A stretch of DNA of 35,776 bases from Burkholderiales bacterium (GTDB lineage Bacteria > Pseudomonadota > Gammaproteobacteria > Burkholderiales > Casimicrobiaceae). Of this stretch, positions 9,272 to 17,522 are shown piece by piece. Positions within the stretch are counted from its first letter, which is position 1. Each line of letters starts with the position of its first letter. Under the pieces are notes generated by a model that did no database searches, had not been told where the DNA came from, and worked only from the letters and a program-made list of their open reading frames with translations. The stretch covers positions 1 through 35,776 of the forward strand of contig JACMNN010000013.1 in NCBI GenBank assembly GCA_014378555.1. Direction: 5' to 3'. The position numbers and the translations under genes are program-made.

Positions 9272-9350
9272 AAGCACGCACCGTCCGCCCGGGGTTGATC
9301 GTCAGTGCCGCATATTGGGCCAGTGAAAAGGACTCGACTAACGCACACAC

Positions 9351-9421
9351 CGTTCGCCCTGAGCGTAGCGAAGGGTTTGATTCCATCGCCATCGAACTCT
9401 TCGCTACGCTCAGGGCGAACG
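9351..9421. repeat. Inverted repeat of the TTCGCCCTGAGCGTAGCGAAGGG family between lptE and holA
   Basis: cgttcgccctgagcgtagcgaagggt (9351-9376) versus actcttcgctacgctcagggcgaacg (9396-9421). Same family as 2384-2457. Confidence 0.88.
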
Positions 9422-9453
9422 GCGGTTGCGTTACCTGCGGCAGCAGCTAATCC

Positions 9454-10467
9454 ATGCAAGTCTCCCCCGACCAACTCCCCAACCGCCTGACCGATACGCT
9501 GAAGCCCATCTACGTCATTCATGGCGAGGAGACGCTGACCAAACTTGAGGCGGCCGACGCCGTTCGTGCCGCGGCACGCAAAGCGGGCTACAGTGAGCGC
9601 GAGCACTTCGTGGTTGAGGCGCATTTCGACTGGAGCCTAGTCACGCAATCGAGCGACAACCTGTCGCTTTTTTCTAGCTTGCGGATTGCTGAAATCACCA
9701 TCAACACCGCTAAACCGTCAGTCGACGCTGGCGCGTTTTTCGCCAAACTCGCCAACGATCCGCCGTCTGACATGCTGTTCATTATCAACCTGCCCAAATT
9801 GGATCGCACCGCGACCGATTCGTCGTGGTTTGCGGCCTGTGATCGCGCTGGCGTTACGGTCGCCGCCCCCCTAGTGGAGCGCGATCAATTGCCGGGATGG
9901 ATCAAGTCACGGCTGCGGCTGGCCGGTTTTGATGCGGCTCGCGAAGTCATTGAACTGATCAGCGAACGCTGTGAAGGCAACTTGCTAGCAGCAAAGCAGG
10001 AAATCGAAAAACTCGCGCTGCTGGTGAAGCCCGGCAAGCTCGCCATCGAAGATGTTTTGAACGCGGTGACCGATGTCGCCCGTTACGATGTGAGCGAGCT
10101 CTCTGAGGCGTTTCTGCGCGGCGACTTGGCCCGCTACGCGCGCGTGCTTGCGGGCCTGCAAGCCGAGGGCGAGCAAGCGCCACGATTGTCGTGGCAGTTG
10201 TCGGAAGACGTGCATGCGCTGGGCAACATTTTTATGGCGAAACGCGAAGGCGTGCCAATGATGCAGGCACTGCGCAATGCGCGGGTGTGGGGCAAACGGC
10301 AGAAGGCGATGGAGATCGCGATCAACCAGATTGATTCGCGACGCATCGCGTCGTTGCTGAAGACCTGCGCCACGCTTGATGCGCAGAGCAAGGGCCAAGC
10401 GGCGGGAGACGCGTGGCTGACGTTAGGCGGGCTCGCAGCGCGGGCGCACGGCGCCCTGGCGCTTTAG
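9454..10467 (+). CDS. holA: DNA polymerase III delta subunit
   Basis: 337 aa: LKPIYVIHGEETLTKLEAADAVR, RDQLPGWIKSRLRLAGFDA, ERCEGNLLAAKQEIEKL. Gene order leuS-lptE-holA. Confidence 0.92.
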   Translation: MQVSPDQLPNRLTDTLKPIYVIHGEETLTKLEAADAVRAAARKAGYSEREHFVVEAHFDWSLVTQSSDNLSLFSSLRIAEITINTAKPSVDAGAFFAKLANDPPSDMLFIINLPKLDRTATDSSWFAACDRAGVTVAAPLVERDQLPGWIKSRLRLAGFDAAREVIELISERCEGNLLAAKQEIEKLALLVKPGKLAIEDVLNAVTDVARYDVSELSEAFLRGDLARYARVLAGLQAEGEQAPRLSWQLSEDVHALGNIFMAKREGVPMMQALRNARVWGKRQKAMEIAINQIDSRRIASLLKTCATLDAQSKGQAAGDAWLTLGGLAARAHGALAL

Positions 10468-13823: not shown

Positions 13824-15725
13824 TTATAAAAGTTCGCCCGGTGCAAGCGGTTCCATTTCGTTCAACATCGCGTGCATTTTGTCTCGCGCCTGGATAAACG
13901 TCGACTGATTTCCCGCCACTGCCAAAAAGTCGTCGAATCGATCGCCGTGTGCCCGGCGCAGATGCTCCACCAGCTTGATAAATGCCGTGACCATGCGCGG
14001 CTCGAAATGCGTGCCCGATGTGCGCTCAATTTCGAGCACCGCTTCGGCGTGCGTCCAGGCATGTTTGTAGGCGCGCGCATGAGTCAGCGCGTCGTACACA
14101 TCGGCGAGTGCTGCGATGCGCGCCACCTCGGGAATGTCGTCGCCTTTAAGGCCCTTTGGGTAGCCGGTGCCGTCCCACTTTTCGTGATGATGCAACGCGA
14201 TAAGTTCAGCCATACGAAACGCTGGATGCGAGCATTGCTGCAGGATCTGCGCACCAATCGTTGTGTGCCGTTGCATCACGGTGAACTCTGCATCGGTGAG
14301 CTTACCCGGCTTCATTAACAAGCCGTCAGGAATGCCCAATTTGCCGATGTCATGGAGGCGTGCAGCGACCTCGATGTCTTGCGCATATTTGTGGCCGTAG
14401 CCGAGTGAATTTGCGAGCAGGCCGGTGAGTTTTCCGACCCGGTATGCGTGGCGGCCAAATGAATCTTCGCGTAGCTCTGCAGACACCGCAAGCCGCTCCA
14501 GCGCGTCACGGTAGAGCGATTCAGGCACCTCAATTTCTTCTTTCTGCGCCCCCGGAATTCTCTGGATTGCCTTGATGACTGCGCGCGCATCATCTTTGCC
14601 CGGCATCGGCGTTTGAATGCGTTCGCGAATCACTTCGAGCTTACTGCGCACGGCAGCAACCTGAGACTGCCCGAGAAACTCAACCAACTCCCCCAAATAC
14701 AGAAGCGCGCCGACGTGATCCTTACCTTTTTCATAGGCCCTCACCAACAGAACGAGGTTGTCGCGATAGATGCCCGGCATCTTTTTAGAGTGCTTCAACA
14801 TCTCCAATAATTTGGCCACTGCGATGGTCAAGTTGCCTGCATAAATTTCGTAGGCGGCCTCGGCAAGTTCGCGATTCAACGTAAGGCGTGGCGATTTGAA
14901 TGCATCAGACAAGTCGCGAATCATTTTGAGGCGCGTCTCGATAGTCGCGTCGTCTTTAAGTCCTATAGCGCTCTTCAGCCACACGCCTTCGGCAATTACC
15001 CGGTTTAGCAGACCATGACCATCGCGCGGCAGGCCGACAGATTCACACGCTTCACGAGCCGATTCAGCAGCTAAAGAGAAATGCTGGAGCGCCAGCGCAG
15101 CGCTCGCCATATTAGTTCGTGCAACGGCAACGAAACTGCCGCAATCGGGGCGGGGTTTGAAGCGTTTAATAATGCGCAAGGCAACAGAAACTGTCTCGCG
15201 ATAGAGCCCCATTGTGTAGAGCGCTGCGGTCATATTGCTGAACGCAGACGCCACACCCATTTGGTCGTCAAGCTCATCGGCGATGGCAGCAGAGCGCAGC
15301 GCGAATTCGACCCCCCGCGCAGGGATACCCACATCAGTGCTAACGACCGCGTAGAAGTTACACGCGCGACGCAACTCTTTTTTAAGCTTGTGATCGGTCG
15401 CTAAATCCAATGCTCGTTCTACTAGCGGAATCGCGTCTACCGAAAGCCCACGTGCGACGTGAGCGCCAGCGACGTCAAGCAGGATGGAGATACATGCAGG
15501 TACCGGCTCGGGATGCTGACTGAAAGCGATCAAGCGAGCCGCCTGAACCATAAGCCTGAAATCCTCTGCGTTCGGGGATTTCAACAGCGAGGGCATGTCA
15601 GCCTGCAATTGTGTGACCAGATCAGACAAACCTTCGCTGTCGAACTCAGTTACGCATGCGTCAATCAACCCAATCAGTGCTTGTTGTTCCACTTGTCTTT
15701 TCCCTGATGCCGCCGTCATAATCAA
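13824..15725 (-). CDS. HD-GYP domain protein (c-di-GMP phosphodiesterase family) with N-terminal TPR-like helical repeats
   Basis: 633 aa. C-terminal HD-GYP signature: RLHDIGKLGIPDGLLMKPGKL...RHTTIGAQIL...ALHHHEKWDGTGYPKGLKGDDIPEVARIAALADVYDAL. N-terminal about 400 aa is alpha-helical repeat (AIPLVERALDLATDHKLKKELRRACNFYAVVSTDVGIPARGVEFALRSAAIADELDDQMGVASAFSNMTAALYTMGLYRE...). Confidence 0.92.
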   Translation of the reverse strand: MIMTAASGKRQVEQQALIGLIDACVTEFDSEGLSDLVTQLQADMPSLLKSPNAEDFRLMVQAARLIAFSQHPEPVPACISILLDVAGAHVARGLSVDAIPLVERALDLATDHKLKKELRRACNFYAVVSTDVGIPARGVEFALRSAAIADELDDQMGVASAFSNMTAALYTMGLYRETVSVALRIIKRFKPRPDCGSFVAVARTNMASAALALQHFSLAAESAREACESVGLPRDGHGLLNRVIAEGVWLKSAIGLKDDATIETRLKMIRDLSDAFKSPRLTLNRELAEAAYEIYAGNLTIAVAKLLEMLKHSKKMPGIYRDNLVLLVRAYEKGKDHVGALLYLGELVEFLGQSQVAAVRSKLEVIRERIQTPMPGKDDARAVIKAIQRIPGAQKEEIEVPESLYRDALERLAVSAELREDSFGRHAYRVGKLTGLLANSLGYGHKYAQDIEVAARLHDIGKLGIPDGLLMKPGKLTDAEFTVMQRHTTIGAQILQQCSHPAFRMAELIALHHHEKWDGTGYPKGLKGDDIPEVARIAALADVYDALTHARAYKHAWTHAEAVLEIERTSGTHFEPRMVTAFIKLVEHLRRAHGDRFDDFLAVAGNQSTFIQARDKMHAMLNEMEPLAPGELL

Positions 15726-15779
15726 TTTATAGATTTTGTGCTTTTATTCTCCGACTTACAACTATCAAGGATCGCCGAA

Positions 15780-15899
15780 ATGGAACAGCAACTCAACTCA
15801 GTTCAAGAACTCAGCCTGACCGCCGAACTACTCCGCGATCTTCTCGACAATGAAATTATCCTGATCGGCGGCGGCGAAGCAGCCAGCAGCCTGTATTAA
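15780..15899 (+). CDS. Double-glycine-leader small peptide, copy 1 (39 aa; predicted core EAASSLY)
   Basis: MEQQLNSVQELSLTAELLRDLLDNEIILIGGGEAASSLY*. aagga-like RBS upstream. Paralogous to the next three ORFs; GG-leader consensus L-12/E-8/I-7/I-4/G-2/G-1. Confidence 0.85.
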   Translation: MEQQLNSVQELSLTAELLRDLLDNEIILIGGGEAASSLY

Positions 15900-15947
15900 G
15901 CCACTAGCGATTCAAGCCACTTACCAAATCTTTTTTTAGGAACGAAC

Positions 15948-16067
15948 ATGAACAGCCAACTCGACAACGCACAAGACATCAGCCTCAACGACGAAATCCT
16001 TCGCGATCTTCTCGACAACGAAATCATATTGGTCGGCGGCGGCGAAGCAGCCAGCAGCTTGTACTAG
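15948..16067 (+). CDS. Double-glycine-leader small peptide, copy 2 (39 aa)
   Basis: MNSQLDNAQDISLNDEILRDLLDNEIILVGGGEAASSLY*, preceded by taggaacgaac (RBS-like). 168 nt downstream of copy 1 start. Confidence 0.87.
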   Translation: MNSQLDNAQDISLNDEILRDLLDNEIILVGGGEAASSLY

Positions 16068-16115
16068 GTTTCTGAAGCTTTTCCCTCAATCGTCATATCC
16101 CTCTTAGGAACAATC

Positions 16116-16235
16116 ATGAATAGCCAACTCGACAACGCACAAGACATCAGCCTCAACGACGAAATCCTTCGCGATCTTCTCGACAACGAAATCATATTGG
16201 TCGGCGGCGGCGAAGCAGCCAGCAGCTTGTACTAG
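16116..16235 (+). CDS. Double-glycine-leader small peptide, copy 3 (39 aa)
   Basis: MNSQLDNAQDISLNDEILRDLLDNEIILVGGGEAASSLY*, same protein as copy 2. Preceded by taggaacaatc. Confidence 0.87.
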   Translation: MNSQLDNAQDISLNDEILRDLLDNEIILVGGGEAASSLY

Positions 16236-16284
16236 GTTTCTGAAGCTTTTCCCCTCAATCGTCATAGCGCTCTTAGGAACAATC

Positions 16285-16404
16285 ATGAATAGCCAACTCG
16301 ACAACGCACAAGACACCAGCCGCAACGACGAAATCCTTCGTGATCTTCTCGACAACGAAATCATCCTAATTGGCGGTGGCGAAGCAGCCAGTAGCCTGTA
16401 CTAG
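16285..16404 (+). CDS. Double-glycine-leader small peptide, copy 4 (39 aa, leader variants I11T and L13R)
   Basis: MNSQLDNAQDTSRNDEILRDLLDNEIILIGGGEAASSLY*. Preceded by taggaacaatc. Confidence 0.85.
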   Translation: MNSQLDNAQDTSRNDEILRDLLDNEIILIGGGEAASSLY

Positions 16405-16720
16405 TTTCCCAACGCCACCCGCTTCCTGGCCATGGCCACCGTTGAGTCACGGTGCGCGATGAGTAGCGTGGTGATGCCGAGGTTTTTGACTACTTGATTG
16501 ACGGCACGTTCGCGCTCGGTATCCGGCGCACTGGTGGCCTCGTCGAGCAACAGAAACTTCAGCTTTCGGTAGAGCGCCCGAGCGAGCATTAGCCGCTGGC
16601 GCTGCCACCTAAAAGCGCGCTCCCGGTGTTGCCGACCCGAGTTTCGCCGCCATCTCCATGCGCTTGCCTGATGCAGCCCTGACGGTCCTCGTAGCGCTAT
16701 CCGATATCGGCGATATCGGT
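16401..16720 (-). pseudogene. Remnant of a peptide-exporter-type ABC transporter ATPase C-terminus (frameshifted, 5'-truncated)
   Basis: Frame 1: GETRVGNTGSALLGG (Q-loop distal/signature region). A single missing base near ggtggc|agcgccag moves it into frame 2: QRQRLMLARALYRKLKFLLLDEATSAPDTERERAVNQVVKNLGITTLLIAHRDSTVAMARKRVALGN*. No Walker A seen. Confidence 0.8.
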
Positions 16721-16879
16721 TGACGACACGACCGTACAAACTACTTCACCACACTCGGGCACGTCTTCAGCGGCACAGAAGCCGGCCTTTGTAGCTTGCC
16801 CAACGAAGAACGCATTCAGGCTCGACAAACTCGAATTTCACCTTCGGAAATCTGTTGCCGCAATGGCGCCGTGCGGATT

Positions 16880-17427
16880 CGCGACATCTAAAACTGGTGC
16901 TCGGTTTGTTGACACCCAATGAGGGCGACATTCGCATTGGTGGCATTCCGTTGCAACAATTGGGGCCGACACAGTATCGATCCATGATGGCAGCGGTGAT
17001 GCAGAACGACGCGCTGATGGCGGGATCGCTTGCCGAAAACATCGGATGCTTTGACCCCACACTTAATCACGAGCGGGTTGAGCAGTCAGCCAAGCTTGCG
17101 CAGGTGCATGAGGAAATTGCTGCGATGCCGATGGGGTGTCAAACGCTGGTGGGGGATATGGGCAGCACGCTTTCGGGCGGGCAAAGGCAACGCGTGTTGC
17201 TCGCGCGGGCGCTGTATGCGCAGCCGAAAATTTTGGCGCTTGATGAGGCGACGAGTAGCTTGGACGGTGACAACGAACGCAAAGTGAATGCGGCGGTTAA
17301 GGTGCTGCCGTTAACACGCATCACTATTGCGCATCGGCAGGAAACGATCAACGCAGCAGAGCGGGTAATCGTGTTGACGGGTGGATATGTTGTGCGGGAT
17401 TTGAATGAGATCGTTAAGGCGGCGTAG
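16880..17427 (+). pseudogene. Truncated ABC transporter ATPase domain of CvaB/RaxB-like (peptidase-containing) bacteriocin exporter type
   Basis: LKLVLGLLTPNEGDIRIGGIPLQQLGPTQYRSMMAAVMQNDALMAGSLAENIGCFDP...MPMGCQTLVGDMGSTLSGGQRQRVLLARALYAQPKILALDEATSSLDGDNERKVNAAVKVLPLTRITIAHRQETINAAERVIVLTGG. The expected Walker A (GPSGxGKTT) is replaced by unrelated sequence (QWRRADSRH) before LKLVLG. Confidence 0.82.
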
Positions 17428-17522
17428 GCTCAGCGTCGGCTCCACATGGCAAACGGACATGTGACGAATCACCCTCAACCCAACCCTCGCCCGCTTGCGC
17501 GGGAGGCGGCAGAACTTAACTG

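Follow-up and report, generated by a model that had tools for sequence, protein, structure and literature searches.

This locus raises the question of what is encoded by four short tandem open reading frames (ORFs), each carrying a double-glycine leader, and with which neighbouring genes their product might work. The ORFs lie on the plus strand at positions 15780-16404 of the window, by which we mean the whole 35,776-nucleotide stretch of DNA analysed; it is contig C232 of a 3.55 Mb genome in 274 contigs. The features discussed are as follows.

13824..15692, minus strand: gene for a 622-aa TPR-HD-GYP protein (Pfam HD_5, 4.2e-34; homologue alignment, AlphaFold model and fold search)
15693..15779: divergent intergenic region of 87 bp between the TPR-HD-GYP gene and the array
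15780..15899, plus strand: peptide precursor copy 1, MEQQLNSVQELSLTAELLRDLLDNEIILIGGG-EAASSLY, with RBS-like AAGGA
15948..16067, plus strand: peptide precursor copy 2, MNSQLDNAQDISLNDEILRDLLDNEIILVGGG-EAASSLY
16116..16235, plus strand: peptide precursor copy 3, the same protein as copy 2
16285..16404, plus strand: peptide precursor copy 4, ...LIGGG-EAASSLY
16401..16739, minus strand: remnant, the C-terminal end of an array-convergent C39-peptidase ABC exporter (homology to a gene on contig C93)
16855..17427, plus strand: second C39-ABC exporter remnant, comprising the nucleotide-binding domain alone (homology to contig C97)

The four ORFs of 39 aa have start-to-start distances of 168/168/169 nt and each is preceded by a Shine-Dalgarno-like AAGGA or TAGGA (4/4), so that the coordinates, spacing and ribosome-binding-site-like motifs given in the first-pass annotation of this DNA are all confirmed. 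Every copy ends in GGGEAASSLY, with LIGGG or LVGGG before the EAASSLY core, while the leaders vary. Copies 2 and 3 encode an identical peptide, copy 4 differs by three residues, and copies 1 and 2 share 72% identity. Copy 1 encodes the same core on quite different DNA, its codons 1-17 being 65% identical to those of copy 2 and its flanks less. The core codon differences among the four copies are all synonymous (CTG/TTG, TAT/TAC, AGC/AGT), which indicates that the protein is kept and not the DNA alone. The array occurs once in its own genome, and the precursor has no match above cut-off among Pfam and NCBIfam families. A promoter search of the 87-bp intergenic region returned one weak sigma-70-like match, no better than those in shuffled sequences.

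The peptide family was found in 16 of the 18 genomes of the genus (14 with a profile built from the four copies, one with a broader profile, and one with a visible leader and an N-masked core). Two other Burkholderiales families have it too, and tandem arrays are its usual form. The named records of the genus are uncultured Burkholderiales or Betaproteobacteria MAGs. The two genus genomes without the peptide (G015 and G021) are the smallest and lack the TPR protein too. Recurrence in 15 further genus genomes, with gene order preserved in every case where the contig permits the comparison, excludes a chance origin of the ORFs; the leader-plus-short-tail pattern had no matches in 62.7 kb of unrelated loci from the same genome. 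A tblastn search of plasmids with the peptide gave no match, and a weak match in another genome (G055) was rejected as chance, as it sits within a 559-codon frame.

In an alignment of 16 sequences, L at -12, E at -8 and the GGG are invariant, position -7 is I, V or L and position -4 is I or V. The precursors therefore have the leader of a C39 substrate (L -12, E -8, hydrophobic residues at -7 and -4, GG at -2/-1), which supports the predicted cleavage after the third glycine, and most peptides outside the genus keep the same register. Cores of 7 aa were counted in 44 of 47 distinct precursors and cores of 6 aa in the other three. This argues for a seven-residue product, as first predicted.

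EAASSLY had been called invariant, and it is so inside its own genome, but the tail changes across species. Other tails in the genus include EAVGTTY, ESLTNCH, DTIVGLY, EGLFNFQ, EVVILGI, EIAVVGS, EISGNFR, DVITSGY, EFSGLLN, DVSLGLY, EAAQMYG, DVIVGLY, EVSLSAY and DVVQMGG. Leader and core also trade places depending on the comparison: within arrays of the genus, the core is 97% and the leader 82% identical, whereas between species the core is 20% and the leader 38% identical. The same inversion is found outside the genus (82% for the core versus 47% for the leader within arrays, 17% versus 32% between species). Variable codons were counted within 15 arrays: those of the core were synonymous-only in 35 cases and nonsynonymous in 10, and those of the leader (the 17 codons before GGG) in 50 and 78, respectively (Fisher p ~1e-5), the array copies being related by duplication, perhaps with gene conversion, and the codon columns not being fully independent. 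Judging from these codon patterns, the tail is under purifying selection within an array. Taken together, the codon counts and the inversion of identities indicate that the core is translated, and that it stays unchanged inside a genome but is exchanged from species to species. This is the reverse of a DNA repeat that is conserved without its reading frame, the outcome named beforehand as evidence against the peptide: here the frame is preserved, and most core changes within an array are synonymous.

The short core, in which Tyr is often the last residue within the genus, would also suit a RiPP precursor whose product is modified, for instance at the C-terminal Tyr in the manner of mycofactocin or PQQ, and tailoring of this residue had been proposed from the window. 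The last residue is not conserved, however: it is Y in about half of the genus species and H, Q, I, S, R, N or G in the others, and outside the genus it is usually G, A, L or F. In the conserved neighbourhood, both in the genus and in the other families, no tailoring gene, whether radical SAM, PqqD-like or of another kind, was recognised, and the precursor has no NCBIfam RiPP match. We regard a modified product as very improbable.

Three features were absent from the first-pass annotation, whose interpretation is supported in part: the adjacent TPR-HD-GYP gene, the remnants of exporters and the variation of the tail between species. The gene order in the genus is leuS-lptE-holA-rsmE-metZ, then the TPR-HD-GYP gene, the array diverging from it, and a C39-peptidase ABC exporter with its HlyD adaptor convergent to the array; altronate dehydratase, SDR and FAH genes follow on the right beyond HlyD. 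Names of the housekeeping genes were read from the sequences and the exporter and HlyD were assigned by Pfam. The arrangement of TPR-HD-GYP gene, divergent array and convergent C39-ABC and HlyD genes is found throughout the genus and again in two other families, in which the exporters are only 47-50% identical.

The peptide and the TPR protein recruit each other. All 12 loci that were recruited by the TPR half alone carry an adjacent double-glycine peptide, whose core is N-masked at one locus, and both loci that were found outside the genus by the peptide profile alone (cores DAGPNWP and DFEPEWP) have an adjacent TPR-HD-GYP gene. A LuxR-type gene is also adjacent at these two loci, and at a third in genome G213. 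In this variant, the LuxR-type HTH gene lies between the double-glycine peptide and the TPR-HD-GYP gene (L107, 9291-12182; L108, 9066-12122; L142, 6715-9723), the cores being DAGPNWP, DFEPEWP and DSTPNW. The TPR protein was present in 13 of 400 genomes sampled across the order, six of them in the source genus, and in 0 of 47 genomes from other genera of the family. Most TPR-HD-GYP genes in other families adjoin arrays, together with C39-ABC and usually HlyD, and their tails include CGDVIWG, GGDVFVG, QAVMVFL, CGEVIMA, SGDVIF and DVTVVIA. No peptide was found near one distant TPR-HD-GYP gene (L140), and two other genes sit at contig edges. Plasmid matches to the TPR-HD-GYP protein were mostly generic HD-GYP proteins and were set aside; no double-glycine peptide was found beside the TPR-HD-GYP genes of two Deinococcus plasmids. 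A class-wide search with a broad TPR profile returned only short generic TPR matches beyond the order, and we therefore claim no wider range.

TPR-HD-GYP paralogues in two genomes (G006 and G010) have their own double-glycine heptapeptides (TGHGSGV and EVVIGTK) and no adjacent C39 exporter, which identifies the TPR protein as the constant partner of the peptide. One of these paralogues (L106, 8206-9840) has degenerate HD and GYP motifs and lies beside an intact peptide gene with the core EVVIGTK; it is possibly a sensor without an enzyme. At another locus (L141, 3502-10087), three TPR/HD-GYP-type genes are interleaved with the double-glycine peptides SGIYLF and SGIFVLA in a genome that also has a full module (L136).

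The TPR-HD-GYP protein of the window starts at a conserved GTG at 15692 (the longest ORF begins at a TTG at 15725). It consists of a TPR superhelix (residues ~20-343) and an HD-GYP domain (~393-590) with the motifs HDIGK and HHEKWDGTGYP, and has no predicted membrane helix. Both the HD and the GYP motifs are present in 23 of 26 homologues, the exceptions being L065, which is cut off by a contig end, the degenerate paralogue above (L089, the same as L106) and L121, whose HD motif is altered. Pfam TPR families match homologues outside the genus and gave no match to the window protein. Its AlphaFold model has a TPR superhelix to residue ~343, in blocks mostly at 75-93 pLDDT (mean pLDDT of 72.9, from 11 sequences). 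A search of PDB folds returned HD-GYP domains first, followed by LGN peptide-binding TPR domains, MalT, Rap with bound pheromones, and NprR. The highest TM scores on the query (0.36-0.41) were those of MalT, Rap and NprR, and Rap-pheromone complexes reached ~0.65 on the target; LGN and MalT score like Rap, and the matches are to TPR superhelices in general. Across 21 diverse homologues, only N153, N194 and L313 are invariant, and we presume that the two asparagines occupy the TPR helix-A position that contacts the ligand in many TPR proteins. These features make the protein a candidate peptide receptor and c-di-GMP phosphodiesterase.

The TPR half evolves fast. Mean identities within the genus are 0.59 for the TPR half, 0.74 for the HD-GYP half, 0.88 for metZ, 0.77 for holA and 0.79 for the exporter, and where close pairs differ in their tails, the rate of divergence of the TPR half is 1.8-4.4 times that of the HD-GYP half. 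Genomes G011 and G008, with the tails EIAVVGS and DVITSGY, are 90% identical in the exporter, 87% in HD-GYP and 94% in metZ but 57% in TPR, whereas G011 and G007, the only pair with the same tail, are 100% identical in TPR and 98% in HD-GYP. A partial Mantel test of TPR distance against tail distance gave p=0.004, and p=0.16 once the near-identical pair G011/G007 was dropped, at which point the indication of coevolution is weak.

Transport genes for the peptide are present outside the window. Its own genome has an intact C39-ABC and HlyD pair on contig C93 (Peptidase_C39, 1.2e-35), with the usual right-hand neighbours of the genus, as well as TolC-type outer-membrane channels and 12 oligopeptide-binding proteins. 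No importer was found among the neighbours of the peptide locus, all 12 oligopeptide-binding proteins being unlinked to it. An intact C39-ABC exporter is thus found at the loci of relatives and in the source genome, and the window itself holds only a remnant. The remnant at 16401..16739 matches the end of the intact exporter gene on C93 at 91.8% identity over 257 bp (16408-16662), and that at 16855..17427 is 97% identical over 369 bp to contig C97. The two stand back to back at 16401-17477 and match the 3' ends of intact exporters on C93 and C97; these contigs share a 32-bp end overlap, which would set the 3' ends of both intact exporters face to face. The remnants may have arisen by inversion, duplication or assembly.

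The two remnants from 16401 and the fragmentation of the genome into 274 contigs would fit a locus that is a decaying relic in the source genome, its adjacent exporter lost, with the system working in relatives. A relic is unlikely, as none of the four peptide frames is disrupted, the TPR-HD-GYP gene is whole, every difference in core codons is synonymous, and the exporter-HlyD pair on C93 is intact with its usual neighbours. The remnant state of the adjacent exporter and the unlinked importer, together with the pairing of peptide and TPR protein at two loci without an adjacent exporter (L104 and L106), would also suit a precursor or tail that serves as an intracellular ligand of the TPR-HD-GYP protein in the producer, the exporter only clearing it or timing its action, with no signal between cells. 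This too has a low probability in our view: the leader is a good C39 substrate in an invariant register, exporter and HlyD are retained beside the array in most species and in two other families, and the sharp boundary between the conserved leader and the variable tail of 7 aa is consistent with cleavage.

A third possibility is a secreted bacteriocin or microcin that harms competitors, with the TPR-HD-GYP protein merely its regulator. Double-glycine peptides of Gram-negatives have reportedly been screened in silico (Dirix et al. 2004, as cited in PMC3262810), and the leader and the C39-ABC and HlyD genes found here are shared with them and with class II microcins; competition could also diversify the peptide. 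A class II microcin locus encodes an antibacterial product of tens of residues and an immunity gene. The core here has 7 residues, far below known class II microcins, no immunity-like gene recurs in the conserved neighbourhood of the genus and the other families, several copies carry the same core, and the constant partner is a soluble TPR-HD-GYP protein. A toxin is accordingly less probable than either of the two preceding alternatives.

We favour, at a probability of roughly 60%, a pheromone that leaves through the C39 transporter, re-enters cells and is sensed by the TPR-HD-GYP protein, which in turn sets c-di-GMP; this agrees with the signalling pheromone guessed at in the first-pass annotation. 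From the leader/core anatomy, the selection on the core, the three-part gene order, the fast TPR evolution, the intact HD-GYP motifs and the TPR fold, all read from sequence, we infer the following route. The array products would be matured to a linear peptide pheromone of seven residues, EAASSLY in the source species, with multiple gene copies giving a higher dose. The C39-peptidase ABC transporter with its HlyD adaptor would cut after Gly-Gly-Gly and export the heptapeptide, which would then be taken up into cells, most likely via an oligopeptide permease. Inside, it would bind in the superhelical TPR groove of the cytoplasmic TPR-HD-GYP protein encoded next to the array and switch the HD-GYP phosphodiesterase, such that the c-di-GMP level would follow population density. 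The channels of different species would be kept apart by heptapeptide and TPR groove changing together. We give about even chances to the fuller claim that this is an undescribed Gram-negative form of peptide quorum sensing, with a C39-released heptapeptide, an intracellular TPR receptor fused to a c-di-GMP phosphodiesterase, species-specific dialects, and paralogous pairs within one genome.

The closest parallel is the RRNPP group of Bacillota (Rap-Phr, NprR-NprX, PlcR-PapR and Rgg-SHP). In both, a small propeptide gene adjoins the gene of a cytoplasmic TPR protein, the final peptide, here a predicted one, is C-terminal, unmodified and of ~5-8 residues, the peptide is species-specific and the TPR half evolves fast; the modelled TPR fold of the window protein also matches Rap and NprR structures. 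The present system differs in its host, a Gram-negative of the Burkholderiales, and in its tandem identical propeptide genes. RRNPP peptides leave by Sec or PptAB and are cut by outside proteases, whereas a double-glycine leader and C39-ABC/HlyD are found here. An oligopeptide permease brings RRNPP peptides back into the cell, where they bind in the TPR groove; for uptake, the source genome offers the 12 unlinked oligopeptide-binding proteins. RRNPP receptors have 250-500 aa with an HTH or Rap-type N-terminal part, in contrast to ~620 aa with a C-terminal HD-GYP phosphodiesterase here, a LuxR-type HTH being a separate gene in one module variant. The proposed system works like RRNPP signalling, yet its receptor architecture and its export route place it outside that group.

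ComC/BlpC-type pheromones share the double-glycine leader, processing and export by C39-ABC, and pherotype-like product variation, but those products are longer and are sensed by a membrane histidine kinase, and the neighbour here is a soluble TPR protein. RpfG, the HD-GYP output of DSF quorum sensing, is a response regulator under a sensor kinase with a fatty-acid signal. A cell-density signal would likewise end in an HD-GYP c-di-GMP phosphodiesterase in our proposal, but it would be a peptide signal, sensed by a TPR domain fused to the enzyme. A literature search, which reached few subscription papers and preprints, found no description of this combination of parts.

Short linear peptides with cytoplasmic TPR receptors are regarded as a Gram-positive speciality, and the known role of Gram-negative C39 exporters is to export toxins, while wider functions have been suspected but not proven (PMC10986499, PMC10075063). 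A large RRNPP survey covered Bacillota and viruses only (PMC10075063). Our reading would carry peptide-TPR signalling into Gram-negatives, with C39 export and a c-di-GMP output. A peptide-receptor pair wired to c-di-GMP would join two fields and give a direct peptide input to the switch between biofilm and motility, and the system would provide a natural library of matched peptide-receptor pairs. A different heptapeptide in nearly every species is what a private bacterial chemical language would be expected to look like.

Two further observations were made in the source genome. A second double-glycine precursor, MKQLTIQQCEEVNGGIFPILLMPVSAGAIWAAGALSFTFGFTAGAFLTHQAK, is encoded on contig C97 (L026, 2870-3070, minus strand). 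Downstream of it lie genes for a putative zincin peptidase (DUF3267) and a second C39-ABC exporter, and this locus looks like an ordinary class II bacteriocin locus. A recurrent REP-like palindromic repeat of the CCCTGAGCGGAGCGAAGGGT type lies at 2383-2458 and 9349-9422 of the window and at 9607-9675 of another locus (L025).
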